Source of the DNA: Lachnospiraceae bacterium | Lineage (GTDB): Bacteria; Bacillota; Clostridia; Lachnospirales; Lachnospiraceae | Direction of reading: 5' to 3' | Length of the DNA stretch: 64,000 nucleotides | Assembly (NCBI GenBank): GCA_024698145.1 | Contig: JAILRO010000039.1 | Coordinates: 22,781-86,780 of the forward strand | Position numbers and translations under genes: made by a program | Notes under the pieces: generated by a model | The model's database searches: none | What the model saw: the letters and a program-made list of their open reading frames with translations, nothing else | Told to the model about the DNA's origin: nothing | Part shown: positions 9,202-27,155 of the stretch, piece after piece | Layout: every line of letters starts with the position of its first letter | Numbering within the stretch: the stretch's first letter is position 1

Positions 9202-9210
9202 CTGCAACAT

Positions 9211-9271: not shown

Positions 9272-9316
9272 TTTCAAGATATCTGCAGATTAAAAATAAA
9301 ACTTGGAGGTAACGAC

Positions 9317-12028
9317 ATGAGAAAAGGCATGATGAAAGAACGTTGGTTAAAAACAGTTACTTCGGTGACAATGTCCTTAGCAATGGTTGCTTCGCTTACA
9401 GCAATCAAAATTGATACTAAGGCTGCAGTAATAACAGAGAAGGAAATCGTTAGAAGTGAAAGATTGACACAGCCAACCAGCTCACACACATTTGCAGTTG
9501 ATGAGCTTGGCGTTGTAAACTTTCATCCTACGTGGGGAAATAAAGAAGAAAATGTTGAAGACATGTTGGAGTATATTGAAGAAGCACATCAGAAGGGAGT
9601 TAAGATTTTGCTTTTCCCTGAAATGTGTGTAACCGGATATGTATCTTCAAGCAACCCGGAAGCAGAAGATTATAAATGGGCTGTAGAAAGTGCGGAGGAA
9701 CTTGACGGACCTACAGCACAGACATTTGCAAAGGTATCTGATGAATATGACATGTGGATCATTTATGGAGCAACACAGAAGATAGACGGCGATGATAAAC
9801 ATGCGTACAACTCAGCGTTTGCATGTTCACCTGAAGGAGATATAACAGCATATCAGAAGATGCATCCTGTTGAAGGCGCGTGGTGTACAGCCGGTACAAC
9901 TCCTGTACTTTTAGATGCCGGTGAGTATGGAAAGATTGGCTTGAGTATCTGTTATGATACATACGCAACACCTGAACTTTCACGTTTTTACTCTGCACAG
10001 GGATGTAACTTATTGCTCAATCCGACAGCGACATCAAGAGGATACAAAACTACGGATGATTCGGCTTGGGAATGGTATTACAAGAACAGAATCGAAAGTG
10101 CAGCTTCACGAGAGGGCTTCACTATTCTTAGTGCAGACCTGGTCGGTAAGGACGGTTTGGGTGACAAGTACACCTTCCCCGGTGGTAGTGTTATATTAAA
10201 TGGTAGTGCCGCATATTACGGTGGTACTGTAGGAGCAAACGGAAGAGGTAATGTAAATGCAGATATTATTACAGGTCAGGAAGGCTTGGTAACAAACGTT
10301 GCAAGTTGTAACGCTAGATCAAGCGGTGCATGTAACAACAAAGACTTCAATCCTGAATTATATACCGTTCTATACAAAGAATTAGCTGATAAGTTAGAAA
10401 ACGGTGAAACTCTTAAATATAATACAAATACAGTAAAAGATCAGCCGAGAGCAGCAGTTGTCAATATGACCGGTTACTGGGGCAACAAAAAGAAGACACT
10501 TGAAAAAATGATAGAGTATATTGATGAAGCAGCCCAAAACGGCGTTGATATTCTTGTATTCCCTGAAACAGTATTGTCCGGTTATGGATATGTAACACCT
10601 GATAAGGATCCTTTTTATCATAAGTATGGTGTATCAATGCAGGTGGCAACGGCAGAAACTATCCCGGGTGAAAGCACCTACAAGCTTTCTGAGTATGCTA
10701 AGAAGTACGGAATGTACATCATTTTCGGTATGACTCAAAAAGAAAAGAAATACAAGATGATTGAAGGTGGTGTTGAAAAAGTATATAACGCTGCGGCAAT
10801 TCTTTATCCGGATGGTAAGATAGATTCGTACCAGAAGATTCAGAGAGCAGGACAGGAAGATCAGTGGTCAGTATGCGGAACAACACCAAAGATTATCGAA
10901 ACTAAGTGGGGTAAGGCAGGTATTGATATTTGTCGAGATGGACACTTCTACCCTGAAATCGGTAGATATTATGCAGCAATGGGTTGTACATTATTCATTC
11001 ATCCAACTGCTACAACAGGAAATGCATGGTATCGTGAAAGCAGAATAGGTTCATATACAGACAGAGATGGTATGGCAGCAATAACGTGTAATCTGTTAGG
11101 TGGTGACGGTATATATAATCCAAGTGGATTATTTGATCCAACAAATGATGAAGCTAACTTTGATGATGAAGGAAACTTTATCGGTGGGGATCCTATACCG
11201 GAGGATTTTGATAATTACGATCCACAGGAAACATACTGGAAGTCAACAAGCTGGATTGGAACAGGCCAAATCTTTAACAGTACAAGTTTGATTATCACAA
11301 AGGCAAGAACAAATGTAAGCTTGAATGGTACAGGTTCTGAATCGGAAGTATATGCGGAAAACGGACTTACAAGTCCTCTTGGTTTAGAGATTGCAGATAT
11401 GGATCTCTCAAGGAGCGGTTTCTCAATTACAGGATTTAATCCTTCGATTTTCTCGAAGATGTATGACAAACTGTCTATCTTATACAGAGGCGGTTATACA
11501 AGTATTTACGGTGGAGACGTAGTTCCGACACCTGTCACAATAAATGTTAACGATATCAAAGAGGCTCCTGGTGAAAAAACAGAGCCCGAAGATCCAAAGC
11601 CGGCCGATGAAAAAGAGCCTGCCGGTACTCCTGCAACTGTACCGGAAGAAAAAACCGTTAAGGAAACTCCAAAGGTTTCAGAGACACCTACTGTAGTTGA
11701 TAGTACCATCACTTCCTCTCCTTCTACCAGTAGTGATGCAACTACAGTAGAGAAGTCGAAAACCGTTGCTGATGTAAAGGGTATAAAGATTAAGTGGAAG
11801 AAAGCAAAATCGATTACTGTTGAGTTTAAGCCGGTTAAAAAGGCTAAGTCTTACAAGGTTCAGTATTCAACAAGCAAGAAGTTTGCGAAAGCAAAAACCA
11901 AGACAATAACTACAAAGAAGACAAAACTTAACATAAACAAGCTCAAAGTAGGCAAGACTTACTACATCAGAGTTAAGGTTGTAAGTGGAAAGTGGTCAAA
12001 GGCTAAAAAGATTGTACTTAAGAAGTAA
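9317..12028 (+). CDS. Secreted protein with two tandem nitrilase (carbon-nitrogen hydrolase) domains and a C-terminal Fn3-like domain
   Basis: The ATG at 9317 has GGAGG at 9305-9309 and opens a signal peptide (MRKGMMKERWLK, hydrophobic core, then TKA); longer upstream starts lack a ribosome site. Two complete nitrilase-fold domains follow. Domain 1 (about residues 55-365) has the catalytic triad E102 (FPEMCVTGY), K181 (AYQKMHP) and C212 (LSICYDTYA). Domain 2 (about 375-750) has E417 (FPETVLSGYG), K507 (SYQKIQRAG) and C539 (IDICRDGHF). Both triads look intact. A Pro/Glu/Thr-rich linker (about 770-840) leads to an Fn3-like domain (AKSYKVQYSTSKKFAKAKT). Nitrilase-family enzymes hydrolyse amides or nitriles, or transfer acyl groups, and are normally cytoplasmic single-domain proteins; a secreted tandem form is unusual. 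The substrate is unknown; an extracellular amide is plausible. Confidence 0.88.
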   Translation: MRKGMMKERWLKTVTSVTMSLAMVASLTAIKIDTKAAVITEKEIVRSERLTQPTSSHTFAVDELGVVNFHPTWGNKEENVEDMLEYIEEAHQKGVKILLFPEMCVTGYVSSSNPEAEDYKWAVESAEELDGPTAQTFAKVSDEYDMWIIYGATQKIDGDDKHAYNSAFACSPEGDITAYQKMHPVEGAWCTAGTTPVLLDAGEYGKIGLSICYDTYATPELSRFYSAQGCNLLLNPTATSRGYKTTDDSAWEWYYKNRIESAASREGFTILSADLVGKDGLGDKYTFPGGSVILNGSAAYYGGTVGANGRGNVNADIITGQEGLVTNVASCNARSSGACNNKDFNPELYTVLYKELADKLENGETLKYNTNTVKDQPRAAVVNMTGYWGNKKKTLEKMIEYIDEAAQNGVDILVFPETVLSGYGYVTPDKDPFYHKYGVSMQVATAETIPGESTYKLSEYAKKYGMYIIFGMTQKEKKYKMIEGGVEKVYNAAAILYPDGKIDSYQKIQRAGQEDQWSVCGTTPKIIETKWGKAGIDICRDGHFYPEIGRYYAAMGCTLFIHPTATTGNAWYRESRIGSYTDRDGMAAITCNLLGGDGIYNPSGLFDPTNDEANFDDEGNFIGGDPIPEDFDNYDPQETYWKSTSWIGTGQIFNSTSLIITKARTNVSLNGTGSESEVYAENGLTSPLGLEIADMDLSRSGFSITGFNPSIFSKMYDKLSILYRGGYTSIYGGDVVPTPVTINVNDIKEAPGEKTEPEDPKPADEKEPAGTPATVPEEKTVKETPKVSETPTVVDSTITSSPSTSSDATTVEKSKTVADVKGIKIKWKKAKSITVEFKPVKKAKSYKVQYSTSKKFAKAKTKTITTKKTKLNINKLKVGKTYYIRVKVVSGKWSKAKKIVLKK

Positions 12029-12208: not shown

Positions 12209-13219
12209 ATGGCAGATTGGGTTATTGTAGTCGATGATGATACTGCTAATCTCAAGATGGCAGGGCACATACTCAGTAAGGCGGGGATGCGTGTTACGGC
12301 ACTTAAGTCGGGACAGGCTTTGCTTAGGTATGTCGCAGAGCATGGCTCACCTGACTTGATCTTGTTGGATATACTTATGCCTGATATGGATGGGTTCGAA
12401 ACTTTGTTAAAACTTCGGGAACAGGAGGAGTCTGTCAAAGAGGTTCCTGTTATTTTCCTAACCGCTAACGAAGATGAAGAATCCGAGACAAAGGGGCTTT
12501 CTTTGGGCGCTATGGATTTTATCAAAAAGCCATTTGTGTCAGATGTTTTGACCTTAAGGGTTAGACATATAATTGATCTTGTTCATCTTCAAAGGAATCT
12601 TGAAGCTGAAGTCGAAAAGAAAACAGCTGAGAATCAGAAGCTGTTTCTTCATGTCGTTTCCACACTTACAACTGCAATAGATGCAAAGGATACATATACT
12701 AACGGTCATTCTAATCGTGTGGCTTTTTATGCAAGTGAGATTGCAAAGCGATTAGGTTATTCCGAGAAGGAGCAGAGCGACATTTACATGATGGGTCTTT
12801 TGCATGACGTAGGTAAGATTGGTGTGCCAGATACAGTTATCAACAAGCCGGCCAAGCTTACTGAAGATGAGTTTGATAAGATTAAGAATCATCCGGTTAT
12901 GGGTGCGAGAATCCTCAAGAATATCAGAGAGATGCCTAAACTTGCTACAGGTGCGAGATGGCATCATGAAAGATACAGTGGCGGCGGATATCCGGATGGA
13001 CTTATCGGCGAGGATATTCCGAAGGAAGCTAGAATTATTGCTGTTGCCGATGCGTATGACGCTATGACAAGCAGAAGAAGTTATCGCGATATTTTGCCAC
13101 AGGGCATAGTTCGCGAGGAGATAGAGAATGGAAAAGGTACGCAGTTTGATCCCGATTTTGCGGATGTAATGCTTGCAATGATTGATGAGGACATAGATTA
13201 CAAACTGCGGGAGGAGTAG
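12209..13219 (+). CDS. Response regulator with HD-GYP domain (c-di-GMP phosphodiesterase, RpfG-like)
   Basis: Residues 1-120 are a receiver with the acidic pocket VVDDD, the phospho-acceptor D54 in LLDILMP, and KKPF. A short coiled linker (LEAEVEKKTAENQKL) leads to an HD-GYP domain with H199-D200 in LLHDVGKIGVPD, KNHP, HHERYSGGGYPDG and the tail motif GKGTQFDP. The domain hydrolyses cyclic di-GMP when the metal residues are intact, as they appear here. It is the first gene of a dense operon; its stop is two bases before the next start. The four hybrid kinases downstream are the natural candidates to phosphorylate D54. The ribosome site is AGGGGG before ATG 12209. Confidence 0.95.
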   Translation: MADWVIVVDDDTANLKMAGHILSKAGMRVTALKSGQALLRYVAEHGSPDLILLDILMPDMDGFETLLKLREQEESVKEVPVIFLTANEDEESETKGLSLGAMDFIKKPFVSDVLTLRVRHIIDLVHLQRNLEAEVEKKTAENQKLFLHVVSTLTTAIDAKDTYTNGHSNRVAFYASEIAKRLGYSEKEQSDIYMMGLLHDVGKIGVPDTVINKPAKLTEDEFDKIKNHPVMGARILKNIREMPKLATGARWHHERYSGGGYPDGLIGEDIPKEARIIAVADAYDAMTSRRSYRDILPQGIVREEIENGKGTQFDPDFADVMLAMIDEDIDYKLREE

Positions 13220-13220
13220 T

Positions 13221-15830
13221 ATGGGGGACAAGTTCAGAGATAACGAACTTTTTAATACCGCGCATGTAATGATTCTTATTAGTTACACCATTTTTTCGAC
13301 GGTGCTGATTTTGGAATCGTTGCTTTTGTCATGGGAAAAATGGGCTTTGGTAATTGTTATTGCGGGTCTTTCGATAAGCTGGGTTATTCACATAAGACAG
13401 AGAATTTCCGGATACATCCGATTATGGGTTTATTCTGTTCTTATGATGGGTACTTTTTTCTTTTATGGGGTTCATACAACAAGTACGTTTGATCTTGCAG
13501 TTGTAATGGGTGCGGTTATTATCATTTACACAATGACAGGAGTTAAAGCACTGATTAAGTTGTGTGTTGTTACATATTGCGTGACTATGGCGTATGAAGT
13601 GTGGACGCTGGTTATGGATGGGAATGCTTTTACACCGCTTGATGTGAGTCGTATAATGCTTCACTATGCCATTATTTTTATGATTGGCTGGGTAAGTACC
13701 GTAATAATTGATAAGTGGCATGCGGTGCTCGGAAGTGCTGATAATCAGATATCGGAACTTGGAGATGCAACAACAAGATTAAGTGATTTCTTGGCGAATG
13801 TATCACATGAGATTCGCACACCAATTAATGCGGTTATCGGTCTTTCAAAAGTATGTATTAAACGTGAGAAGGACGAAGCGATTAAGCGAGATTTAGACGC
13901 AATCAGTGCCGGTGGTAAGAGAGTATATGAACAGATAAGTGATATCCTTGATTATTCGGAAATAGACAGAGGTAATCTTGCAGTTAACTATGAGGACTAT
14001 ATGATTTCCTCGATATTAAATGATATCGTAACAGAGATTCGCCCATATAAGAATCCACGATTGGAACTTGTAATTGATGTAGATCCGAGTGTTCCTTCGA
14101 TTATGAATGCGGACGTTTATAAACTTAAGAAGATTTTGTGGCATCTTATTATGAATGGCTTGAAATACACCAGAGAAGGTGGAGTGTATGTACGTATTTC
14201 TACTAAACCACATGAGTATGGCGTCAATTTATATATCGAAGTAACGGATACCGGTATCGGTATGAACGGTGAAGAACTTGATAAGATATTTGACAGATTC
14301 TATCAGGGTGATTCCGGAAGAACAAGAACCACAAGCGGTCTTGGCCTTGGTATGTCAATTGTGTATGGTTTTGTTTATTCTATGGGTGGCTTTATAACGG
14401 TTGAGAGTGAACCTGATGAGGGTACTTCTGTAAGAGTAAGTATCCCACAAACAGTTGTAGATACTTCAGAATGTATGTCAGTTAATAATCCGGAGGATTT
14501 ATGTATCGGTGCATTCTTGAATTTTGACAAATATATCAACCCTCAAGTAAGAGAGTACTACAATTCTGTTGTTCTTAACATTACGCGTGGATTGAAGGTT
14601 TCTCTCCATCGAGTTGACAATATAGACAGTCTTAAGAAATTGACTAAAAAGATTCAGCTTACTCATCTTTTTGTAGGTGAAGAGGAGTACGAGACGGACG
14701 TTGATTTCATGGAAGAACTTTCGAAGGATGTAAGAATAGAAGTAGTTGCTAATGAAAGCTTCAAGCTTCCTCTTGGTTCGAGAATTAAGATACTTAAGAA
14801 GCCTTTCTATTGTTTCCCGGTTGCAAGTGTTCTTAATTACCAGAGTGAAGATCTAGAGGATGAGGGTAAGATGGTTTGCCGTAATGTTCGTGTGCTCGTG
14901 GTTGATGATGAGCCGATGAACCTTACTGTTGCAATGGGAATATTTAACAGTTACGGAATGATAGTTGCTACTGCTGATTCCGGAATCGAAGCGATAAGCA
15001 GATGCAAGCGAAACAGCTATGATATTGTATTTATGGATCACATGATGCCGGGTATGGATGGTGTCGAGGCCATGAAGAGAATACGTGCAGAAGCTTCAAA
15101 AGAACATGATGACTTCCCGATAGTTGCACTTACAGCGAATGCGGTAAGTTCTGCAAAAGAAATGTTTATCAAGGAAGGTTTCGATGGATTTGTAAGTAAG
15201 CCGATTGAAACAGAAGAACTTGAACGTGTACTGAAACGTGTTCTTCCTGTGTCTGTAATTACATATGAGAAGAGAGTTTCGGAGGAGAATACCGGAGAGG
15301 AAGTCAGCAAGAAGGCGTTCGAACGTCTCAAAGAAGTAGGAATAGATACAGAAAAAGGTATGCACTATTGCCAGAATGACAGAGGATTTTATAAGTCACT
15401 CATGCTTCAATTTGCTACAGAGGCTCTAACCAAAAAGGTTAACATGGAAAGATATTTTGAGAGTGGAGACCTTACCAATTATGCAATACTCGTTCATGCA
15501 CTTAAGAGTACCGCTAAAATGATAGGTGCAACGGAACTTTCAGAGAAAGCAAGATTGTTAGAGGAAGCGGCCAAATCATCTGACAGAACTTATATTGACA
15601 ATCATCATGAGGATATGAATATCCAATATGAGAATATAACCAATGGAATTAAGACCGCATATGGAGTAGACGAAGATATAGCAAGTCGTGATTCTCATGA
15701 TTATACGACTGAAGATGGCGAAGATGTTATGGAGTTTTCGCCTGATGAAGAGGATGTCAAAGAATCTTACAAACAGGAAGTTAATAGTTTTGATGATGAT
15801 GAAATTATGGAGTTTTTACCGGAAGAATAG
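13221..15830 (+). CDS. Hybrid histidine kinase with pseudo-receiver, receiver and Hpt domain (module 1)
   Basis: The order is: six membrane segments (residues ~10-170); HisKA with H196 in ANVSHEIRTPINAVIG; HATPase_c with MNGLKYT, DTGIGM and GLGLGMSIV; a receiver-like domain without an acceptor Asp (about 430-540, keeping LKKPF); a true receiver with D606 in FMDHMMPGMDG; and an Hpt domain with H759 in VHALKSTAKMIG. This gives a full His-Asp-His relay in one protein. The membrane part is short-looped, with no periplasmic sensor domain, so it may sense the membrane itself. An acidic tail ends in EIMEFLPEE. The ATG at 13221 has GGGAGGAG within the end of the previous gene. Its closest relative in the window is the kinase at 19482. 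Confidence 0.93.
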   Translation: MGDKFRDNELFNTAHVMILISYTIFSTVLILESLLLSWEKWALVIVIAGLSISWVIHIRQRISGYIRLWVYSVLMMGTFFFYGVHTTSTFDLAVVMGAVIIIYTMTGVKALIKLCVVTYCVTMAYEVWTLVMDGNAFTPLDVSRIMLHYAIIFMIGWVSTVIIDKWHAVLGSADNQISELGDATTRLSDFLANVSHEIRTPINAVIGLSKVCIKREKDEAIKRDLDAISAGGKRVYEQISDILDYSEIDRGNLAVNYEDYMISSILNDIVTEIRPYKNPRLELVIDVDPSVPSIMNADVYKLKKILWHLIMNGLKYTREGGVYVRISTKPHEYGVNLYIEVTDTGIGMNGEELDKIFDRFYQGDSGRTRTTSGLGLGMSIVYGFVYSMGGFITVESEPDEGTSVRVSIPQTVVDTSECMSVNNPEDLCIGAFLNFDKYINPQVREYYNSVVLNITRGLKVSLHRVDNIDSLKKLTKKIQLTHLFVGEEEYETDVDFMEELSKDVRIEVVANESFKLPLGSRIKILKKPFYCFPVASVLNYQSEDLEDEGKMVCRNVRVLVVDDEPMNLTVAMGIFNSYGMIVATADSGIEAISRCKRNSYDIVFMDHMMPGMDGVEAMKRIRAEASKEHDDFPIVALTANAVSSAKEMFIKEGFDGFVSKPIETEELERVLKRVLPVSVITYEKRVSEENTGEEVSKKAFERLKEVGIDTEKGMHYCQNDRGFYKSLMLQFATEALTKKVNMERYFESGDLTNYAILVHALKSTAKMIGATELSEKARLLEEAAKSSDRTYIDNHHEDMNIQYENITNGIKTAYGVDEDIASRDSHDYTTEDGEDVMEFSPDEEDVKESYKQEVNSFDDDEIMEFLPEE

Positions 15831-15845
15831 AAAGGAAGTGCCGGG

Positions 15846-18518
15846 ATGCTTTTGAGACGACTTAAGAATAGAATAATTGAATCGGATCTTGAATTGCATG
15901 ACAAGCTGTTCGTTCTTCTTTCGGGCGTTGCTTTGCTTGCTCTGATAATTATATTTTTTGTAGGAATTATCATAGGTGAAACAGGCACGGATCTTTTGAT
16001 GCTCGGCGGTGCGATATTGATTGCTGGATTGCTGAGTATGTTTGCAATTGTCAAAAGAAAAATCGGAATTATGGCGGGTCTTTTTTCATTCATCATAGTG
16101 TTTTTCCTGCTACCGGTTACATTCTTTACCGGTGGTGCAATATTTGGTGGAGGACCACTTTGGTTTGTATTTGCAATTTTGTTTATCAGTTTAACTCTTA
16201 GAAGAAAAGTCAAATTGATATTTTTGCATGCGTTAATTTTTGTTTCTGCAGCATGCTATGCTTTTGCGTACAAATATCCTTCATACGTTACGTCGCATGA
16301 CTATACCATGGCATACCTGGATTCATTTATATCGTTGTTGCTCATAATGTCTTCAATAAGCATAATGATTACATTTGTAACCAAGTTGTACACCCTAGAG
16401 AATGAGAAGGCCGAGGCAAGAAAGAAAGAGATTGAGGAGCTTAATGCTTCGCAGAATCATTTCTTCTCAAGTATGAGCCATGAGATAAGAACACCGATTA
16501 ATACAATTATTGGATTGAACGAAATGATACTTCGTGAGGATGTATCTGCCGAGGTTGCGGAAGATGCTGCCAATATTCAGTCCGCTAGTAAGATGTTATT
16601 GCATCTTATCAATGATATTCTTGATATGTCCAAGCTTGAATCAGGAAAGATGCAGCTTAATATGGATTCTTACAATATCGGAGATATGCTTTCCGATGTA
16701 GTTGGAATGCTCTGGATTAGAGCGAAGGATAAAGGTCTTGAGTTTCATGTTGATCTTGAACCGGACATGCCTTCTGGATATTTGGGTGATGAGGTTCGAA
16801 TCAAACAAATACTTATTAATGTAATCAATAACTCGATTAAGTACACAAAGACCGGTTCGGTAACACTTTCCATTCAATGTGCCAAACAGGATAACGGTAT
16901 GGCTAATGTTATATTTACTGTAACTGATACCGGTATCGGAATTAAGAAGGAGAATATTCCGTATCTGTTCACAGCGTTTAAGCGTGTGGAAGAAGATCGT
17001 AATAAGTATATAGAGGGAACCGGTTTGGGACTTTCCATTGTTAAGCAGTTTGTTGATATGATGGGTGGAAAGATTACGGTTAACAGTGTTTATACGAAAG
17101 GCTCAACATTTATTATTGAGATACCTCAAAAGATTGTGGACGAGGAATCAGTTGGCGAGTTCGGTCTTGAGAATAGGGCTGCTATGCAGATGAGAGAGAC
17201 TTATCACAGAAGTTTTGAGGCGCCGAGTGCAAGAGTGTTGGTTGTCGATGATAATGCATCCAACCTTATGGTTGTTAAGAAACTTTTGAGAGATACACTT
17301 GTTAAGATTGATACTGTTGAAAGTGGTAAAGAGGCACTTGAGAAGACGTTAGAGATTGAGTACAACGTAATCTTCATGGATCATATGATGCCGGAGATGG
17401 ACGGAATAGAGTGCTTGAAAAAGATTCGTGCACAAGCCGGTGGACGATGTAAACAATCAAAGATTGTTGCACTTACGGCCAATTCCGGTGCGGATAATCA
17501 GCAGTTATATGTACGAGAAGGTTTTGATGGTTATTTGTTAAAGCCCATAAGTGGTGAGGCTATAGAACAGGAGTTATACAGACAACTTCCAAGAGAGATG
17601 GTTGTGGTTTCCGATGATGATGCTGCTATTCTGGAGGAGAGTACAGCGTGGATGCAGAAGCACAACAAGAAAACAGATGTTGTTATTACGACTGAAAGTG
17701 TTGCGGACATACCAAAGTCACTGCTTAAGAAGCATAACATTGCTGTGATTCCTTATTTGGTTGAGACAGAAGCCGGTTTGTTTGAGGATGGCTTTGAGAT
17801 AGAGTCGCATGGGCTCATTTCTTATATGAACAGGGACAACAATCTGGCGTGGACAAAGGCACCGAGCGTTGATGAGCATGAAGCATTCTTTGCGGAGCAA
17901 CTTGCCAAAGCCAATAATGTCATACACATGTCAATATCAAAAAAAGTTAATAACAGCGGTTGCGAGATTGCTATGGAAGCAGCGGGAATATTTGAAAATG
18001 TAACGGTTTTTGATACGGGTAATTTATCAAGTGGTCAAGGAATAATGGTGCTTGAAGCGTGCCGTATGGCAGAGGAAGGAATGCCGGTAGATAAGATTCT
18101 CGCAAACCTTGAGAGAATGAAGAGCAAGATACATTCCAATTTCATTGTTGATAATATGGATTATCTGGCAAAATCAGGACAGGTAGGTGAGTATTTATCA
18201 AGTATTGCAAAAGCATTTAATGTGCACCCGGTAATGCTTCTTCATAATGGAAAGATGTCGGTAGGTGGATTCTATTTCGGTTCAAGAGAACGTGCTTGGA
18301 GAAAGTATATTAACAGAATGGTTAACAAAATGAGCACGGCAGATAAAAAGTATTTGTTTGTGACATATGTAGGACTTTCTCAAAAGGACATTGAGGAGAT
18401 AAGAAGTATTATTGCAAACAGATTAAATTTTGAAAATGTGTATTTCCAGAAAGCTTCACCGGCAATTGCGGTTAACTGTGGTCCGGAAACATTTGGATTG
18501 TTATACATGGATGAATAA
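15846..18518 (+). CDS. Hybrid histidine kinase-receiver with a C-terminal DegV (fatty-acid-binding) domain (module 1)
   Basis: Six membrane segments (about 20-190) are followed by HisKA with H212 (SSMSHEIRTPINTIIG), HATPase_c (NNSIKYT, DTGIGIKKENI, GTGLGLSIV), a receiver with D512 (FMDHMMPEMDG) and, from about residue 610 to the end, a complete DegV-family domain. DegV marks are TTESVADIPKSLLKKHNI, a TKAPSVDEHEAFF motif, FDTGNLSSGQG, the NMDYLAKSGQVG segment and a C-terminal NCGPETFG block. DegV/FakB proteins bind a fatty acid in a tunnel. Here the usual His of the HxGPG block is Asn, so the ligand contacts differ. No fatty-acid kinase (FakA) is nearby. The domain could be the sensory input or an output that responds to phosphorylation. 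AAAGGAAG precedes the ATG. I know of no characterised kinase with this fusion. Confidence 0.9.
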   Translation: MLLRRLKNRIIESDLELHDKLFVLLSGVALLALIIIFFVGIIIGETGTDLLMLGGAILIAGLLSMFAIVKRKIGIMAGLFSFIIVFFLLPVTFFTGGAIFGGGPLWFVFAILFISLTLRRKVKLIFLHALIFVSAACYAFAYKYPSYVTSHDYTMAYLDSFISLLLIMSSISIMITFVTKLYTLENEKAEARKKEIEELNASQNHFFSSMSHEIRTPINTIIGLNEMILREDVSAEVAEDAANIQSASKMLLHLINDILDMSKLESGKMQLNMDSYNIGDMLSDVVGMLWIRAKDKGLEFHVDLEPDMPSGYLGDEVRIKQILINVINNSIKYTKTGSVTLSIQCAKQDNGMANVIFTVTDTGIGIKKENIPYLFTAFKRVEEDRNKYIEGTGLGLSIVKQFVDMMGGKITVNSVYTKGSTFIIEIPQKIVDEESVGEFGLENRAAMQMRETYHRSFEAPSARVLVVDDNASNLMVVKKLLRDTLVKIDTVESGKEALEKTLEIEYNVIFMDHMMPEMDGIECLKKIRAQAGGRCKQSKIVALTANSGADNQQLYVREGFDGYLLKPISGEAIEQELYRQLPREMVVVSDDDAAILEESTAWMQKHNKKTDVVITTESVADIPKSLLKKHNIAVIPYLVETEAGLFEDGFEIESHGLISYMNRDNNLAWTKAPSVDEHEAFFAEQLAKANNVIHMSISKKVNNSGCEIAMEAAGIFENVTVFDTGNLSSGQGIMVLEACRMAEEGMPVDKILANLERMKSKIHSNFIVDNMDYLAKSGQVGEYLSSIAKAFNVHPVMLLHNGKMSVGGFYFGSRERAWRKYINRMVNKMSTADKKYLFVTYVGLSQKDIEEIRSIIANRLNFENVYFQKASPAIAVNCGPETFGLLYMDE

Positions 18519-18546
18519 TTTTTAGGAATGGAGGTTGAGGTATTAG

Positions 18547-19485
18547 ATGGTTCATAAGCTTATGATAATAGATGACAATAATATACAGAAAGTACTTTTG
18601 GAACAATTGCTCATCAAGGCATTGGGCAAGACTGTTGATGTTCATTGCTTCAACTCTATTTCCGAGAGTGATTTTGATGATGATTGGGAGGCTATGTTTG
18701 TTGACTTATATATCCCGGGCACAACCGGACAGGAAGCGATAGATGGAGTTAACGACGAACTTAGACGTATGGGTCGCAAGGTTCCTGTGGTGTGGCTTGG
18801 TGATGACAGTGAAGTTGAGAAGCTTTCCTATGCCGACCATGAGGAATTGTACAATCTTGAAAAACCTATCCAATACAAGGTTCTTTGTAATATTTTGGAG
18901 GACATACTTGAGCTTTCTTATGATCCTGAAGCTCTTGGTTGGGTTGAGAAAGAGATCGGAATTGCCAACTGCGGTTCGGAAGAAAGTTATGAGGCGGCAG
19001 CACAGATATATGCGTCTACAGGTCGTACCAAGGTTGAGGAGATACGACAGTTTTATATGGACGAAGACTGGGAGAATTACACCATCAAGGTTCATGCGCT
19101 TAAGAGTTCTTCAAGAATCATAGGTGCTATGGAGCTGGGAGATTTGGCCGAGGAGCTTGAACATGCCGGTGATGACAGAGATATCGATACAATTAAGGAG
19201 AAAACGGAAGATCTGTTAAAAGGTTACGAATTGTGTATTAAGACCATAGAGAGTTCTTTGAATAAAAGAGACACTGATCAGCCAATGGTTGATGCTGTGT
19301 ATCTTGCGGATGCATACTCTTCTATGTATGACTTTGCCTGCCAGGAGGATTATGACCTTATGGAAATGGTACTCGACGAACTTAAGAACTATGTACTTCC
19401 TGAGGAGGATGACGCTAAAGTAAAGGAAATTAGCGAGATGTTCCTTCGTTGGGACTTTGAAGGGATAAAGGAGGTGTTGTCGTGA
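18547..19485 (+). CDS. Receiver-Hpt phosphotransfer protein (module 1)
   Basis: Residues 1-125 are a receiver with IIDDN, acceptor D53 in FVDLYIPG and the Lys of LEKPI; the usual Thr/Ser at the end of strand 4 is missing (VVWLGDD). Residues about 160-235 are an Hpt domain with H183 in VHALKSSSRIIG. The last 75 residues are acidic and helical, with no family I recognise. No DNA-binding or enzymatic output is present, so it is best read as a shuttle between the hybrid kinases and the HD-GYP receiver. GGAGG lies upstream of the ATG. Its stop overlaps the next gene's GTG start. Confidence 0.88.
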   Translation: MVHKLMIIDDNNIQKVLLEQLLIKALGKTVDVHCFNSISESDFDDDWEAMFVDLYIPGTTGQEAIDGVNDELRRMGRKVPVVWLGDDSEVEKLSYADHEELYNLEKPIQYKVLCNILEDILELSYDPEALGWVEKEIGIANCGSEESYEAAAQIYASTGRTKVEEIRQFYMDEDWENYTIKVHALKSSSRIIGAMELGDLAEELEHAGDDRDIDTIKEKTEDLLKGYELCIKTIESSLNKRDTDQPMVDAVYLADAYSSMYDFACQEDYDLMEMVLDELKNYVLPEEDDAKVKEISEMFLRWDFEGIKEVLS

Positions 19486-21983
19486 AAGCCTCAAATGATA
19501 TTAATTCAACAAGAATTAAAGATCGTGCCTTTGAAGAGAATGAGAATAGAGAGAAAGACCGTTTGAGAGTTGTAAGTCTTACAATAGTCTTTTCTTTCAC
19601 AGTGGCTGCGCTTGCACTTATGGCAGGTATTTTCCTGCTTAAATGGGAGGCGTGGGCGTATCCTTTAGTTATTGTGTCGGTAATTGTTGTCTGGTCTATG
19701 CATATCAGACAGGATGTAAATTTGCGTGGCAAGACTTACGTGTACGCGTTTATGTTTTATGCCTTGACGTTTTTCCACGGAATACATCCGGACAGCCTGT
19801 TTGATTCATCGTTGATTGTGTGCTTTGTAATGCTTTTGTTTACGATGTTTCAGGAGACGATGGTTATTAATATAGGACTAATCGTGTATTTCTTTCTGAT
19901 GGTTAACCAGTTCTTTGGCATGTATCAGAGTGGCACAACTTTAGATGATATTGAGATTGCAAGAATAATTCTTCACGTTGCTATAGTACTCGTTACAGCA
20001 AGAGTTTCGAAGATGACAATACGCGGAAGAAAAATGATGGGAGAACGTTACGGTGAAACGATATCCAAACTCGGCGAAATGAATCGCCGTATGGAGGACT
20101 TCATGGCTAACGTTTCTCATGAACTTCGTACGCCTATCAATGTTGTAATGGGACTTAGTAAGGTGCTCATTGAAGATGAGAAGAATGCTGCCAAGAAGAA
20201 AACGTTAAATTCCCTTTTTGCAGCCGGAACAAGACTGTCCGGACAGATAGGAGATCTTCTTGATCACACGGAAATAGATACAAACAAGATTATATTATCA
20301 AAAGAACCGTACGAGATAACATCGGTTATCAGTGATGTTATTGACGATTTATCGATGTATGACATAAAGAATATGCCGGAGATAGTTGTTAATCTTGATC
20401 CTGCTGTTCCGAGAACATTAATTGGTGATGCGACAAGAATCAAAAAAATACTTTGGCATTTATTTTCCAATGCCGTTAAGTTTACTGAAGATGGTGGTGT
20501 TTATGTACATGTATATCATCGATACATGGAATATGGTGTCAACCTTTGTATAGAAATAATTGATACCGGTAAAGGAATTGATCCGGAAGAAAAAGAGAAG
20601 ATGATGAGTGGTCTGTATCAAAGCAATTCCGGAAGAAACAGAGAGACAGGTGGAATCGGAATAGGTCTTTCGCTTGTGTATGGTTTTGTTCACGCGATGG
20701 GTGGATTTGTAACAATTAATTCTGCAGCAGAGCAGGGAACACATGTCAGGGTTTCCATACCGCAGGGTATTGCGGAAACAACGCATTGTCTTACTGTCAG
20801 AGATGAAGATAATCTTCGTGTCGGCTTTATATTCAATACAGAGAATTACTCAGTTCCTATGCTTAGAGATTTCTACAGAGATATGACTGTATCACTTGTT
20901 CGCGGACTTAAGGTTCCTATTATAAGATTGGCTTCATTTAATGACTTTAAGAATTTAAGCGAGGATGAACAGTTTAGTCATATTTTTGTGGGCGCAAGAG
21001 AGTATATGGCATATCGAACTTCTTATGAGAAGCTCGCAAAAAATATTAACATTGCAGTTGTTGCACCGGAGGATTTTGTGTTCCCAAGCGACAGCAGAGT
21101 TATTCATTTTAAAAAGCCTTTCTACTCGTTCAATTTTGTTGAGATACTTAATGCAGGTAATAACAGATATGAATATACCAATGTTGCTGAAGAAACTAAG
21201 TTAACCTTCCCGGATACAAGAGTCTTGGTTGTTGATGATGAAGAAATGAACCTTGTTGTTGCGGGCGGAATACTTAGCAAATATGAGATGCAGGTTGATA
21301 CTGCTTTAAGTGGTAAGGAAGCAATACTTAAATACAGCGAGACTGATTACGATGCTATTTTCATGGATCACATGATGCCGGAAATGGATGGTGTTGCTGC
21401 AACTGCAGAGCTTAGAAAGATACAGGAGAAGAAGGGACGCAACACAGTTGTTATTGCGCTTACTGCTAATGCAGTCAGCGGTGCTCGTGAAATGTTCCTG
21501 TCATCAGGTTTCGATGGATTCGTTGCAAAACCTATTGCAATAGTTGAACTTGAAAGAACACTTTGCAGCCTGCTTCCTAAGAATATGGTAATTCAGAGCA
21601 GCCGCAAGCCTTTGGCTTCTCTTATTTGGGATGCAAACGGTATATGTGATGTTTCGGTTGTAAGAGAATACTGTATGGACGACAAGGCAATATTTGAAAA
21701 AGTTTGCGATGCATTTGTTGATGATGCTGATGATGTAATGCAGGCAATACAGAATGCATATGAGGAGTCGTACATTAGTGAATACAGATGCTATATGATT
21801 GCTGTTCGAGATACTGCAAGACTTATGGGTGAGAATAACCTCATCAAGATGACGGCAGAGATAGAAGAGATCTTCCTTGACAAGGGCATGATGCCTAACA
21901 GAGCAAGGAATGTCAAACTTATCGACGAATACAGAAAAGCAGTTGAATATATTGCAAAAGAGAGAGGAGGGGAAAGCCTATGA
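19482..21983 (+). CDS. Hybrid histidine kinase with receiver and degenerate Hpt (module 2)
   Basis: It starts with GTG at 19482 (AAAGGAGG upstream), overlapping the previous stop by four bases. About six membrane segments (residues 25-185) precede HisKA with H213 (ANVSHELRTPINVVMG), HATPase_c (SNAVKFT, DTGKGI, GIGIGLSLV), a pseudo-receiver (about 440-555, keeping FKKPF) and a receiver with D629 (FMDHMMPEMDG). The C-terminal domain aligns with the Hpt of the 13221 kinase, but the phosphorylatable His is Ile (I773, in YMIAVRDTARLMG). So this copy cannot finish the relay by itself and would need another Hpt, such as the one at 18547. Domain order and sequence mark it as a diverged paralogue of 13221. 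Confidence 0.92.
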   Translation: MKASNDINSTRIKDRAFEENENREKDRLRVVSLTIVFSFTVAALALMAGIFLLKWEAWAYPLVIVSVIVVWSMHIRQDVNLRGKTYVYAFMFYALTFFHGIHPDSLFDSSLIVCFVMLLFTMFQETMVINIGLIVYFFLMVNQFFGMYQSGTTLDDIEIARIILHVAIVLVTARVSKMTIRGRKMMGERYGETISKLGEMNRRMEDFMANVSHELRTPINVVMGLSKVLIEDEKNAAKKKTLNSLFAAGTRLSGQIGDLLDHTEIDTNKIILSKEPYEITSVISDVIDDLSMYDIKNMPEIVVNLDPAVPRTLIGDATRIKKILWHLFSNAVKFTEDGGVYVHVYHRYMEYGVNLCIEIIDTGKGIDPEEKEKMMSGLYQSNSGRNRETGGIGIGLSLVYGFVHAMGGFVTINSAAEQGTHVRVSIPQGIAETTHCLTVRDEDNLRVGFIFNTENYSVPMLRDFYRDMTVSLVRGLKVPIIRLASFNDFKNLSEDEQFSHIFVGAREYMAYRTSYEKLAKNINIAVVAPEDFVFPSDSRVIHFKKPFYSFNFVEILNAGNNRYEYTNVAEETKLTFPDTRVLVVDDEEMNLVVAGGILSKYEMQVDTALSGKEAILKYSETDYDAIFMDHMMPEMDGVAATAELRKIQEKKGRNTVVIALTANAVSGAREMFLSSGFDGFVAKPIAIVELERTLCSLLPKNMVIQSSRKPLASLIWDANGICDVSVVREYCMDDKAIFEKVCDAFVDDADDVMQAIQNAYEESYISEYRCYMIAVRDTARLMGENNLIKMTAEIEEIFLDKGMMPNRARNVKLIDEYRKAVEYIAKERGGESL

Positions 21984-24667
21984 AAAGATGGATTGCAGCC
22001 ATAAAAAACCCGGCTCTTGGCATGCGCCTTCGAACTTTTTATCTCGCAGGAGGCGTTGGAACAGTATCATTATTGATAATGGTTCTGATAAGTCTTTTGA
22101 TTGGTGAGAATATGTCAAGTATTCTGATGGTGTCTTGTTGTGTATTACTGTATGCGTTATTGTTCTATTTCACAATACATTATAAGAAGTTGGATGTGGG
22201 CGGCTCGATTATATGCTTCCTTGTGGTATGCGTACTGTTCCCGATTTGTTTCTTCTGTTCGGGTGGCTTGTATGGTGGCTCTCCGCTCTGGTTTGTATTT
22301 GGAGTAGTGTTTATAAGTAGTCTTATGAGAGGCAAACTTCAGATAATGTTTTTCGTGCTGACGATTATAACGCTTACGGTTTGCTACGGTGTTTCTTATG
22401 TGTGGCCGGATGTGGTACAGGCGCACACAACAGAGACTTTCTTTATGGATTCCTTTGCGTCGGTTCTTCTTATAAGTTTTCTTATATTGTTGCTGATTAC
22501 ATTTCAGGCTAATATTTATAAGGAAAAGAACGAACTTGCACAGAAACGCAGTGAGGAAGTTGAAGAGTTAAACAGAGCGCAGAATCGCTTCTTCTCAAAT
22601 ATGAGTCACGAAATCAGAACGCCTATCAACACAATAATAGGTCTTAACGAAATGATTCTTCGTGACACAACTGACAAAGAAGTTGCCAATGACGCAAGTA
22701 TCATTCAGGGCGCGAGCAAGATGTTGTTAAGCCTTATAAATGATATCCTTGATATGTCAAAGATTGAATCCGGTAAGATGGATATAGTTTCGGTGGAATA
22801 CGGAACAGCTGACATGCTTTCAGAGATTGTCAACATGATCTGGTCAAGGGCGCGCGACAAAGGAATCGAGTTCAAAATTGAGGTTGATGAAACTATTCCA
22901 TCAAGACTTTTTGGTGATGAAGTAAGAATTAAGCAGATACTTATAAACCTGCTTAACAATGCAATCAAATACACAAAAGAGGGTTCTGTTATTTTGTCTA
23001 TCCAGTGCGAACAGGCAGATGATAATCAGGTCAATCTTGTATATAGTATTACCGATACAGGAATGGGTATTAAGAAAGAGAATATCCCGACACTTTTTGA
23101 TGTGTTCCAGAGAGCGGATGAGGAAAAGAACAGGTACATTGAAGGAACCGGTCTTGGACTTTCGATAGTTAAGCAGCTTGTTGGACTCATGGGTGGCGAG
23201 GTTACCGTCAACAGCGTGTATATGAAAGGCTCAACATTTATTGTAAGACTGCCTCAGACGATTGCTGACAAGCAGCCGATAGGAACACGTAATTTCATGG
23301 AGCACGGAAGAATTGTCGGCATTGAAAGATACCGGACAAGTTTTGAAGCACCACGAGCGAACGTTCTTATTGTTGATGATAATGAGGTCAATGTTACTGT
23401 TGAAAAGAAACTTTTGCGTGATACAAAGATGAACGTTGAAGAGGCATTAAGCGGTGAGGAATGTCTTAATAAAACGGTTGCCAAGAAATACGATGTTATT
23501 CTTATGGATCATTTAATGCCGGAGATGGATGGAATAGAGTGTCTTCATGCGATACGTTCGCAAAAGGGTGGTCTTAACAACAATACGCCGGTTATCGTTC
23601 TTACTGCCAATGCCGGTTCGGAGAATCAGCAGCTTTACAAGGTTAACGGATTTGATGACTATCTGTTAAAACCTATTAGCGGCAGACAGTTAGAAGAGAA
23701 GATAATTCGTTTCATTCCAAGAGGGCTTGTCAAAGAATTGTCAGGACCTACTCTTGTTGAGGCGAGAGAACAGAGTACGGGAGTACGACTTCACAAGGTT
23801 GCGATATGCATTACAACTGACAGTATGTGTGACATACGTGATGAGGTTATAAGGAAATACAGAATTGGTGTTATACCAAGTCACATACATACCGATGATG
23901 GTGATTTCTTGGATGGTGTTGAGACAAATGCCGACGAGATAATGTATTATTTGAAGGAGAAGAAAGGAAAAGCTCACAGTGCTGCGGCTACAGTTGGAGA
24001 ATACGAGCGTTTCTTTGCGGAGAATCTTTCAAAAGCGTACAGAATTATACATATTTCCAATGCCGGGGGCGTGCGTGACAGCTATGTTAACGCATGTGAG
24101 GCTGCGAAAGCTTTTGGTAACGTGACGGTTATAGATTCGGGACAGATATCGACCGGTATAGGAATTCTTGCATACGAGGCTGCTCGCATGGTCAATGACG
24201 GCGGATTGCGTGTGGATGAGATAGTAGAGGAGTTGGAAGTGCTTAAGAGTAAAATCCAATCTGGATTTGTTGTTGGTTCGACAGAATATCTTGCTAACAG
24301 TGGTATGATTGGACAGAGCACTCACAGGATATTCGATTCTATAATGATGCACCCCGTAATAAGTGTTTCCAATAGTGAGATAGCATTTAAGAAGGTTATG
24401 TGGGGTACGATAGAAGGCCTCAGGTTATCATTCGTCAAATATATGCTGAGTAATGCAGACAATATAGATAAGAGCAGACTTTATGTTACATACTCAATAC
24501 TTACCAAAAAAGATAAGGATGAGATTGAGGCTATGATAAGGACACAGATTGATGTTGTGGATGTTATCTTCAACCAGTGCTCGGCAACAAATGCTGTTAA
24601 CTGTGGCCCGGGAACTTTCGGTATTGCATATATAACTAATTACAAAGAAAGAGAGAGACGCTTATGA
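21980..24667 (+). CDS. Hybrid histidine kinase-receiver with a C-terminal DegV domain (module 2)
   Basis: It overlaps the previous gene by four bases (ATGA), with GAGGAGGGG upstream. Six membrane segments are followed by HisKA with H210 (SNMSHEIRTPINTIIG), HATPase_c (NNAIKYT, DTGMGIKKENI, GTGLGLSIV), a receiver with D510 (LMDHLMPEMDG) and a DegV domain from about residue 607 to 885. DegV marks are CITTDSMCDIRDEVIRKY, a SAAATVGEYERFF motif, IDSGQISTGIG, STEYLANSGMIG and NCGPGTFGIAY. As in the paralogue at 15846, Asn-Cys replaces the usual His before GPG. The kinase parts of the two paralogues are clearly closer to each other than the DegV parts, which suggests the ligand domains diverged after duplication. 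Confidence 0.9.
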   Translation: MKRWIAAIKNPALGMRLRTFYLAGGVGTVSLLIMVLISLLIGENMSSILMVSCCVLLYALLFYFTIHYKKLDVGGSIICFLVVCVLFPICFFCSGGLYGGSPLWFVFGVVFISSLMRGKLQIMFFVLTIITLTVCYGVSYVWPDVVQAHTTETFFMDSFASVLLISFLILLLITFQANIYKEKNELAQKRSEEVEELNRAQNRFFSNMSHEIRTPINTIIGLNEMILRDTTDKEVANDASIIQGASKMLLSLINDILDMSKIESGKMDIVSVEYGTADMLSEIVNMIWSRARDKGIEFKIEVDETIPSRLFGDEVRIKQILINLLNNAIKYTKEGSVILSIQCEQADDNQVNLVYSITDTGMGIKKENIPTLFDVFQRADEEKNRYIEGTGLGLSIVKQLVGLMGGEVTVNSVYMKGSTFIVRLPQTIADKQPIGTRNFMEHGRIVGIERYRTSFEAPRANVLIVDDNEVNVTVEKKLLRDTKMNVEEALSGEECLNKTVAKKYDVILMDHLMPEMDGIECLHAIRSQKGGLNNNTPVIVLTANAGSENQQLYKVNGFDDYLLKPISGRQLEEKIIRFIPRGLVKELSGPTLVEAREQSTGVRLHKVAICITTDSMCDIRDEVIRKYRIGVIPSHIHTDDGDFLDGVETNADEIMYYLKEKKGKAHSAAATVGEYERFFAENLSKAYRIIHISNAGGVRDSYVNACEAAKAFGNVTVIDSGQISTGIGILAYEAARMVNDGGLRVDEIVEELEVLKSKIQSGFVVGSTEYLANSGMIGQSTHRIFDSIMMHPVISVSNSEIAFKKVMWGTIEGLRLSFVKYMLSNADNIDKSRLYVTYSILTKKDKDEIEAMIRTQIDVVDVIFNQCSATNAVNCGPGTFGIAYITNYKERERRL

Positions 24668-25416
24668 GTCAAGTATCAATAATTAGTGTCACGGAAACAT
24701 TTACAGTAAAAGGAATTATCAAAAAACTGCAGGAGTTCGGTATGGAGGTTGAAAGTATAAGTGCAACCGACGAAGCAATCGAGCGAACTGTCGAGAATAC
24801 GGCTGTGTACATTATCATGGCTAATGATTCTGCGGCCAATATGGTTGGAGTGATTGATGATCATAAGGATGTGTTTACTGCTCATTGTGAACATGTACTT
24901 TTGATAGGAACAAAAAATGATTCCAAAATCTTTGAGAACTACTTATCTTTTAATGAGGGCTGGGAGTTTTTCGAACGTCCTATAGATGTTTCCGAATTAG
25001 TCACAAAGACGCAGCGTATAATGGAAGAGGAAAATACGTTTGAGAAAAAACCTTGTATTCTTATAGTGGATGATGATATAACATATTGTGAAATGATAAG
25101 AGGTTGGCTTAAGGATTTCTTCAGAGTAAGAATGGCAAATTCCGGGGTTAATGCAATAACCTGGCTTGCCAATAATCATGCTGATTTGATACTGCTTGAT
25201 TATGAGATGCCAATTACATCAGGACCGAAGGTGCTTGAGATGTTAAGAAGTGAGGAGGAGACGGCGAATATTCCGGTTCTTTTCCTTACGGGTGTCGGCG
25301 ATAAGGCCAGCATCACAAGAGTGCTTTCGCTTAAGCCTAACGGATATCTTCTTAAGAGTATTAAGAAGAAGGATCTTATTGAGCAGGTGAGTCGTTTTCT
25401 GATTGAGGGACAGTAA
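24664..25416 (+). CDS. Double receiver response regulator (module 2)
   Basis: It overlaps the DegV kinase gene by four bases. The first half (residues 1-120) has a receiver-like pattern but lacks the acidic pocket and the acceptor Asp. The second half (about 130-250) is a complete receiver with LIVDDD, D179 in LLDYEMP, LTG and the Lys of LLKSI. No output domain is present. It occupies the position that the receiver-Hpt protein (18547) occupies in module 1. It may be a phosphate sink, or work by protein contact with the HD-GYP proteins. Confidence 0.87.
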   Translation: MSQVSIISVTETFTVKGIIKKLQEFGMEVESISATDEAIERTVENTAVYIIMANDSAANMVGVIDDHKDVFTAHCEHVLLIGTKNDSKIFENYLSFNEGWEFFERPIDVSELVTKTQRIMEEENTFEKKPCILIVDDDITYCEMIRGWLKDFFRVRMANSGVNAITWLANNHADLILLDYEMPITSGPKVLEMLRSEEETANIPVLFLTGVGDKASITRVLSLKPNGYLLKSIKKKDLIEQVSRFLIEGQ

Positions 25417-25445
25417 TCTCTTAATAACGCAACTTGGAGGTAGAA

Positions 25446-27155
25446 ATGGTAACAGCATATTACGCAATCAATTTTGTTATTGCGACAATACTTGCATTTA
25501 TATATGTGTACATATGGAACAAGCATTATGATACTAACATTACATTAATTTTTATGTTGATTTGTATCAGTAACATGGCATATTTTTTGATGTACAGTAA
25601 TACTAATCCTGAAGCAGCAATGATTTCACTTAAGGTATTATATTTTGGCGGATGCCTGTTGCCGTGGTTTATAACCATGAGTGTTGTTAATCTGTGCCAG
25701 TTTGAACTTAAGAATATTATCAGGATGATTATGTTCGTAATCAACTGCCTAATGTATTGTTGTGTTCTTACCGCCGGTCACTTTCCTTTGTATTACAAAA
25801 AAGTTGATTTTATTATGGTCGACAATAAATGGGTAATAAACAAGGAGTACGGACCGCTTCATGCTTTGTTTTATGTGGTCATTGCCTTTTACATGAGTTT
25901 GAGTATTGGCATAATTATTTATACATACACGAAAAAGAAACAAGTGTCGAGAAAGATTCTTTATCTTCTGGTAATACCTGAAATAACATCAATGCTTAGT
26001 TATTTTTTGAATCACGTGGGAGTGCGTTCGCTTGAACTTGTGCCGGTAACATATAATATATCACTTTTTGTGTATCTGTTAATTGTTAAAAGTATGTCAA
26101 TGTATGATGTAAGTGATATGGTTATTCAGTCGATGGTTGAGACGGGTAATACAGGATTTGTATCTGTTGATTTCAAACATCATTATCTTGGTAGTAACGA
26201 AACGGCGAAACGCATTATGCCGCAATTATATGATCTTGCAGTGGATCAGTCACTAGATAGTGTTGATGCTTTCAAAGACAGTGTTTTGTATTGGATTAAA
26301 CATTTTGAGAAGAATGAGGGTGCCGGTAACAATTCATATATAATTGAAAGAACGACCGAGGATAACAAGCAGGAATCCTACAAGGTTGAGGTCAATTATC
26401 TGTATAACGGAAAGAAGAAAATAGGCTATCAGATATTCTTATCTGATGATACACAGAATCAAAGGTATATTAAGCTTCTTGACAAGTACAATTCTGAACT
26501 CGAAGAAGAAGTTGCCACAAAAACCGAACGAATAGTTATGATGCATAATAATCTTGTGCTTAGTATGGCGACAATGGTAGAAAGTCGTGACAATTCGACC
26601 GGTGGTCACATAAAACGAACCAGTGAAGGCGTTCGTATTCTGATAGAGGAAATGAAGAAGGATAATGAGCTTAATCTTTCTGAAGATTTTTGTGCCAATA
26701 TTATCAAGGCTGCACCGATGCATGACCTTGGTAAGATAGCTGTAGATGATGCGATATTAAGAAAGCCGGGACGTTTTACACCTGAAGAATTTGAGGTTAT
26801 GAAGTCTCATGCATCAGAGGGCGCGAAAATCGTCCATGAGATCTTAAAGAGTACGGAGAATGAGACGTTTCAGGTTCTTGCGGAGAATGTGGCCCATTAT
26901 CATCACGAGCGTGTAGATGGTTCGGGATATCCGGTAGGACTTAAAGGTGATGATATACCGTTAGAGGCAAGGATTATGGCTATTGCCGATGTATATGATG
27001 CGCTTGTCAGTAAGAGAGTCTATAAGGAGAAAATGTCCTTCGAAGAAGCTGATAAGATAATTATGGAAGGTATGGGCACTCAATTTGATGAGAAGTTAAA
27101 GAAATATTATGTGAGTGCAAGACCAAAACTTGAGGAATATTACAGCAAACAATAA
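25446..27155 (+). CDS. Seven-transmembrane sensor with PAS-like and HD-GYP domain
   Basis: The ATG at 25446 with GGAGG at 25436-25440 is the best start. About seven membrane segments (residues 1-215) resemble the 7TM input region of some Firmicute histidine kinases. A PAS-like region (about 225-340) and a coiled linker come before an HD-GYP domain with GGHIKRTSEG, H-D in PMHDLGKIAVDD, KSHASEGA, HHERVDGSGYPVG and GMGTQFDE. It should hydrolyse c-di-GMP at the membrane. It lies 29 bases after the double receiver with no terminator between, so it is probably the last gene of the signalling operon. Confidence 0.92.
   Translation: MVTAYYAINFVIATILAFIYVYIWNKHYDTNITLIFMLICISNMAYFLMYSNTNPEAAMISLKVLYFGGCLLPWFITMSVVNLCQFELKNIIRMIMFVINCLMYCCVLTAGHFPLYYKKVDFIMVDNKWVINKEYGPLHALFYVVIAFYMSLSIGIIIYTYTKKKQVSRKILYLLVIPEITSMLSYFLNHVGVRSLELVPVTYNISLFVYLLIVKSMSMYDVSDMVIQSMVETGNTGFVSVDFKHHYLGSNETAKRIMPQLYDLAVDQSLDSVDAFKDSVLYWIKHFEKNEGAGNNSYIIERTTEDNKQESYKVEVNYLYNGKKKIGYQIFLSDDTQNQRYIKLLDKYNSELEEEVATKTERIVMMHNNLVLSMATMVESRDNSTGGHIKRTSEGVRILIEEMKKDNELNLSEDFCANIIKAAPMHDLGKIAVDDAILRKPGRFTPEEFEVMKSHASEGAKIVHEILKSTENETFQVLAENVAHYHHERVDGSGYPVGLKGDDIPLEARIMAIADVYDALVSKRVYKEKMSFEEADKIIMEGMGTQFDEKLKKYYVSARPKLEEYYSKQ

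Follow-up and report, generated by a model that had tools for sequence, protein, structure and literature searches.

DegV domains with a changed ligand site at the end of hybrid histidine kinases that adjoin a partner kinase and c-di-GMP regulators in Lachnospiraceae

DegV proteins are fatty-acid carriers for FakA, and the FakB/DegV fatty-acid-binding proteins (S. aureus FakB1, 5UTO, and FakB2, 4X9X; T. thermophilus 2DT8) are among the closest known counterparts of the domains described here. The C-terminal DegV-like domain of FakA is far more distant from these domains than FakB is. A second point of comparison is RpfC/RpfG, the DSF fatty-acid quorum sensing system of Xanthomonas, in which a short N-terminal sensor (Arg15, Asp17, Ser18, Glu19, Gln22) precedes the five transmembrane (TM) helices of RpfC. 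A fatty acid is reported to activate RpfC (PMC5391125). A third point of comparison is the BarA/TorS/LuxQ type of hybrid kinase: the HisKA-HATPase-receiver core of our kinases matches their models, in all cases far below the cut-offs, but here a DegV domain sits at the C-terminus and the HPT domain is mostly found in a partner kinase. Databases name such proteins, for example, 'DegV family EDD domain-containing protein', and open-access literature searches returned, among the matches listed, no description of a DegV-histidine kinase or of such a system.

In the 64,000-nucleotide stretch of Lachnospiraceae DNA analysed here (the window), two genes each encode, in one open frame, a predicted six-TM region, HisKA, HATPase, a receiver and a full DegV domain. 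In both, Pfam places a HisKA His box, an ATPase domain and a receiver Asp in one chain, as in hybrid histidine kinases, and the full-length profile of the DegV family (PF02645) matches both copies above its curated cut-off. In the predicted structure the whole DegV fold is retained after the kinase/receiver part; the model of DegV kinase 1 has six TM helices, and hydropathy predicts that both kinases are membrane proteins. The initial annotation had each kinase running unbroken into a complete DegV domain and suggested structure prediction as a check: Pfam bears this out for both genes, and in the model of kinase 1 the DegV fold is indeed present after the receiver. The His box and the receiver Asp are conserved in a 47-row kinase alignment. 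Among 80 related loci, which are the best 80 of 538 confirmed when ranked by likeness to DegV domain 1, the His box was recognized by motif in 75 and the receiver motif in 80/80.

Unlike FakB, the window DegVs are fused or gene-linked to hybrid kinases and have no adjoining FakA. Pfam found no Dak2 domain in the gene run, and the FakA gene sits on contig C45 of the source genome, in agreement with the earlier statement that no FakA is nearby. The kinases belong to eight plus-strand genes (12209-27155) that, by the list of open reading frames, are separated by gaps of 1-28 bases or overlap by 4 bases, a spacing which suggests a single operon (Table 1). By Pfam, their order is REC-HD-GYP, HK1, DegV kinase 1, receiver-like-HPT, HK1b, DegV kinase 2, receiver protein and 7TM-HD-GYP. 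The Response_reg match of the receiver-like-HPT protein (E 0.006) is under the Pfam cut-off. HK1b residues 729-827 match a local HPT profile, with HALKS replaced (AVRDTA) and the phospho-His motif gone. Homologues of the receiver protein adjoin other DegV kinases. Located upstream of the run, at 9179-12028, is a gene for a 949-aa protein; judged from the translation, it has two nitrilase-like repeats and an N-terminal part resembling a signal sequence. A neighbour in locus L016 is 90% identical to it.

Table 1. Features of the gene run and their positions in the window (residues refer to the encoded protein).
Feature	Position	Strand	Evidence
Response regulator, receiver + HD-GYP (c-di-GMP phosphodiesterase type, RpfG-like)	12209..13219	+	Pfam Response_reg, HD_5; motifs HDVGK, HHERYSGGGYP
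HK1, partner hybrid kinase: hydrophobic N-terminal region, HisKA, HATPase, receiver, HPT	13221..15830	+	Pfam
HPT of HK1	residues 714-819		local HPT profile; motif HALKS
DegV hybrid kinase 1: predicted TM region, HisKA, HATPase, receiver, DegV	15846..18518	+	Pfam, model
DegV domain of kinase 1	17679..18509	+	residues 612-888
Receiver-like + HPT protein	18547..19485	+	Pfam Hpt E 1.9e-8; motif HALKS
HK1b, second partner kinase	19482..21983	+	Pfam HisKA, HATPase, receiver; no Pfam HPT
DegV hybrid kinase 2	21980..24667	+	Pfam
DegV domain of kinase 2	23804..24637	+	residues 609-886
Receiver protein, C-terminal receiver	24664..25416	+	Pfam; no Pfam match in first ~130 aa
HisKA_7TM membrane region + HD-GYP protein	25434..27155	+	Pfam; motifs HDLGK, HHERVDGSGYP

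HK1 has RpfC-type domains (TM region, HisKA-HATPase, REC, HPT), and together with the regulator at 12209 the kinase at 13221 reproduces the RpfC/RpfG layout, a REC+HPT hybrid kinase beside a REC-HD-GYP protein. The differences from RpfC/RpfG are the additional DegV kinase or free DegV and a regulator that is often REC-GGDEF-REC-HD-GYP; we use the comparison in the sense of 'works like', not 'is'. The N-termini of HK1s favour NELFQxSH ahead of the first hydrophobic stretch. The initial annotation's reading as a two-component kinase with DegV and a common changed ligand site stands, but it missed the conserved gene set around the kinases. This gene run, with its partner kinase, HPT domains and c-di-GMP enzymes, is more informative on function than the fusion alone.

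We next turn to copies elsewhere. Eight DegV matches were found in the source genome (2.89 Mb, 71 contigs). Half of them are in short frames, and the four in long frames comprise two in the window, one on contig C62 and one on contig C43. The C62 copy is preceded by an HK1 and a REC-HD-GYP protein. On C43, a single 1147-aa frame contains HK, REC, DegV and HPT, and the HK1 preceding it is without HPT. About 6 kb behind this C43 gene are open reading frames (L010, 14093-18189) that, from translation only, read as a fabH-fabD fusion, fabG and fabF. In a protein search with the DegV part, restricted to fusion-length proteins, the two copies matched 466 and 263 proteins. The best 120 of each set amount to 233 distinct fused proteins, the window's two included, and a DegV domain of more than 260 residues was recovered in all 233. 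A search for the same architecture in other Lachnospiraceae had been proposed at the outset; there are four fusions in the source genome, and similar proteins number in the hundreds.

In a survey of 299 family genomes, roughly one for each genus, matches at E 1e-62 or better occurred in 53, at 71 places; at 62 of these, in 46 genomes, the DegV match lies within an open frame of 500 aa or more. Within the genus, frames of more than 500 aa were found in 8/20 genomes, source genome included, indicating that the gene set is patchy. A match at 1e-60 or better was present in 14 of 391 genomes of the class, and the long frames of this survey come from the family itself (six genomes) and from a single genus of another family (three). 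In 398 phylum genomes, frames of more than 500 aa were detected in the source genome, in two more from its family and, as a candidate of 580 aa, in another genome. Record titles among the 80 loci include Lachnospiraceae, Ruminococcus, Ruminococcaceae, Oscillospiraceae, Saccharofermentans, Mageeibacillus and others, many of them from rumen samples. Such genes are also present in records named Butyrivibrio sp. VCB2006, Lachnospiraceae bacterium G41 and Ruminococcaceae bacterium AB4001.

In 73 of the 76 loci having at least 600 bases upstream, the gene immediately preceding the DegV kinase is HK1, and the two genes overlap by 4 bases in 37/73. Three loci depart from this: L092 does have HK1, but its DegV kinase is split over two frames, and in L030 and L033 the preceding gene encodes a receiver protein. 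Immediately before HK1, 50 of the 63 loci with enough sequence encode a regulator that includes an RpfG-like part; HDIGK or HDVGK occurs in 42/50 of these regulators and GGDEF or GGEEF in 37/50. Pfam analysis of five of them revealed REC-GGDEF-REC-HD-GYP (L032, L041, L091), REC-HD-GYP (L044) and REC-GGDEF (L075). Judging by these motifs and domains, c-di-GMP turnover seems to be the common output. An extra kinase (dCache-HisKA-HATPase-REC-HPT by Pfam on L047 and L049) adjoins the gene set in some loci, these two among them.

HPT domains were counted with a profile built on HK1's own HPT ends. In type I pairs HPT is on HK1 in 73/73 and on the DegV kinase in 0/73, and the divergent pairs (L126-130, L132, L133) likewise have it on HK1 only (7/7). 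Type II pairs (L116-120, L122-125) have HPT on the DegV kinase only (9/9), as does C43 of the source genome; in L121 no HK1 is in reach. In the window's second set the HPT of HK1b is without the His motif, and a separate REC-HPT protein stands alongside; L134 resembles this set, with a weak HPT match on HK1b and the DegV kinase in two frames. One exception is L143, where the HK1 frame stops after the receiver and no open reading frame shown at the locus matches the HPT profile; the single-chain L131, described below, is another. From the usual single HPT per pair we infer that both kinases usually feed one relay; if so, one HPT on either of two neighbouring kinases would be a clean natural example of two sensors converging on one relay. 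The source genome has 18 HPT matches, compared to 1 to 5 in five other phylum genomes, which points to unusually many phosphorelays.

Mean pairwise identity among 78 type I DegV kinases is 0.81 for HisKA, 0.76 for HATPase, 0.67 for the receiver, 0.21 for the TM region and 0.58 for DegV, the last figure being inflated since loci picked by likeness to DegV domain 1 lean to its type. The TM region of 68 HK1s has an identity of 0.46. Despite the DegV-based choice of loci, the contrast between DegV and TM region is large. We read it as suggesting that HK1 supplies the membrane sensor and DegV the second input.

A search with the HK1 N-terminal sensor region in the 299 family genomes gave 54 places, four in the source genome among those 47/54 where a DegV follows within 7 kb downstream on the same strand. 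Four of the remaining seven are at a contig end, one (G628:C135) is not judgeable, and two are pieces of a broken HK1 on C45. The latter is an extra HK1-type sensor region of the source genome (G000:C45:25025-25496), in two pieces with an in-frame TGA. DegV is present in 38/39 genomes with the HK1 region versus 15/260 without it (Fisher p about 1e-34, descriptive, since the genomes are related), and several of those 15 have a divergent HK1-like neighbour (e.g. L126, L128, L129, L133, L145-147). The association does not depend on fusion: in 6/15 stretches (L140, L141, L143, L145, L146, L147) a free DegV lies directly behind HK1, and the HPT motif HALKS is found in 5/6 of these HK1s, the frame in L143 stopping after the receiver. 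In L144, kinase and DegV are in two overlapping frames, possibly due to a frameshift. L131 has a single 862-aa frame that joins an HK1-type N-terminus to DegV; inspection by eye showed neither a HisKA box nor a receiver or HPT in it. In G041:C32 the HK1 and DegV matches share one 876-aa frame.

In FakB1, the fatty acid takes part in a Ser171-His270-Thr62-carboxylate-Ser95 network, Arg173 is a latch needed for catalysis, Arg205 docks FakA and the membrane and is said to be completely conserved in FakB, and Arg205 and Arg173 serve membrane encounter and fatty-acid exchange (PMC8892158). We counted residues at these positions (FakB1 numbering) in an alignment with the FakB2 chain as ruler, comparing 233 fused domains with 23 stand-alone controls that are mostly from the best-scoring end of a longer list and hence canonical by choice. 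At Arg173, Arg205 and His270, DegV kinase 1 has Q779, F811 and N877 and DegV kinase 2 has M776, W808 and N874; neither window copy retains any of the three FakB residues. The change first noticed, His of the HxGPG block replaced by Asn-Cys, is thus common to both copies, each with Asn, and is wider than claimed, Arg205 and Arg173 also being gone.

Among the 233 fused domains (best 120 each of the 466 and 263 matches), Arg205 is found in 0/233 (Phe in 140) versus 22/23 stand-alone proteins. The His270 position holds Asn in 224 and His in 2 of the fused domains listed, being changed in 231, and 21 His and 2 Tyr in the stand-alone proteins; Arg173 is kept in 51/233 and lost in 182 (Gln in 150), compared to 23/23 kept in the controls. 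The Thr62 position has Thr (127) or Ser (74) in the fused set and Thr in 23/23 stand-alone proteins, and Ser95 remains Ser in 68/233. By this alignment, FakB residues for docking FakA and for holding the fatty-acid carboxylate are lost. The replacements are themselves conserved among the domains listed: Asn in 224/233, Cys in 213/233 and, in the nearest group, Gln in 117/119. As the carboxylate-holding residues are partly replaced, an ordinary free fatty acid seems a less likely ligand than the initial annotation implied.

Asn without Arg205 is also seen in the seven short DegVs that belong to the gene set, that of L144 among them, whereas His, Arg and Arg are all retained in seven further stand-alone DegVs, which the fused-type profile retrieved; the change therefore tracks the gene set, not the fusion. 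Consistently, fused and HK1-linked DegVs lie on one side of a tree branch with support of 100/99. Positions H637, H694 and H726 are His in 119, 117 and 117 of the 119 nearest fused DegVs listed. DegV kinase 1 has Tyr at H637 and Asn at H726, and this copy may have its own specificity.

We favour, if only just, a reading in which the DegV kinases, encoded in an operon-like run with HK1, HPT and c-di-GMP regulators, have in DegV a cytosolic receptor whose ligand, hydrophobic and acyl-like, would steer a phosphorelay probably common to both kinases. DegV accompanies one partner kinase across many relatives, so that an internal receptor for a lipid-like signal that would tune c-di-GMP is likely. 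Phosphate would travel from the kinase cores to a receiver, to the one HPT and on to the regulator, REC-HD-GYP or REC-GGDEF. Whether DegV holds its ligand would set phosphate flow in the HK1/DegV-kinase pair, possibly through kinase versus phosphatase mode or through receiver-HPT transfer. The FakB fold being kept in the model, the ligand is probably acyl-like; the carboxylate site being rebuilt, a free fatty acid bound the way FakB binds it is improbable. With less certainty, the ligand may retain an acyl tail without a free carboxylate held in the FakB manner. Ordinary fatty-acid handling remains conceivable alongside this, given FakA and canonical DegVs at other sites of the genome. If true, a kinase-coupled DegV with its FakA-docking and carboxylate residues replaced would represent receptor use of the fold, and a defined ligand with c-di-GMP output is predicted in rumen/gut Lachnospiraceae and relatives. 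A bolder and doubtful extension is that in Clostridia the FakB fold was freed from the fatty-acid kinase and recruited as the signal-binding subunit of a two-kinase c-di-GMP relay, which would make it a Gram-positive counterpart of fatty-acid quorum sensing, with an intracellular acyl signal without free carboxylate (e.g. an amide, ester or head-group lipid).

An equally good reading of the lost carboxylate-site residues is that DegV binds no ligand at all. In the chief rival, to which we assign a low but appreciable probability, DegV has lost ligand binding and serves, as a structural or docking module, to bring the DegV kinase, or a free DegV, together with HK1. It agrees with the loss of Arg205 in 233/233 and the change of His270 in 231/233 fused domains listed, and the HK1 tie persists with free DegV, as expected for a dock. 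However, a mere dock needs neither conserved replacements at positions lining the FakB ligand site nor the whole fold, and both are kept. We think it improbable that DegV is instead an output, with receiver phosphorylation switching lipid binding or transfer at the membrane. Its place after the receiver is the usual output position and both kinases are predicted membrane proteins, but Arg205 and Arg173, the membrane-encounter and exchange residues of FakB (PMC8892158), are absent here, six loci have DegV without an attached receiver, and in type II an HPT follows DegV, so the relay would run beyond it.

The DegV fold, the FakA gene in the genome and the C43 copy lying near ORFs that read as fabH/fabD, fabG and fabF would also fit a membrane-tethered FakB that passes fatty acid to FakA and links fatty-acid activation to signalling. 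This is very improbable given that Arg205 (FakA binding) and Arg173 (catalysis), as assigned in PMC8892158, are gone in the window copies, and Arg205 in all 233 domains listed. Finally, a missed stop, frameshift or misassembly might have fused two genes, a suspicion raised at the start to which the overlapping frames of L144 and the two-frame DegV kinases of L134 and L092 lend some colour. It has practically no weight against four open fusions in the source genome, hundreds of matches from several sources and one well supported tree group of fused and HK1-linked DegVs; the artefact reading is refuted by the recurrence of the fusion across genomes.

Other arrangements of these domains were also encountered. 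On source contig C13 (L012, 4954-8314), an 808-aa HisKA-HATPase-REC kinase, weakly matched by PAS, is followed after 37 bases by an ordinary DegV that keeps the FakB residues; no match to this arrangement was found in the short flanking sequences of 13 related loci. A 594-aa protein of L135 (3117-4901, G045:C4) has Dak2, the FakA middle domain and a full DegV (E 1.6e-71), and looks like a FakA-FakB fusion. An open frame of 620 aa at G056:C16:48963-49796 may be a second one.
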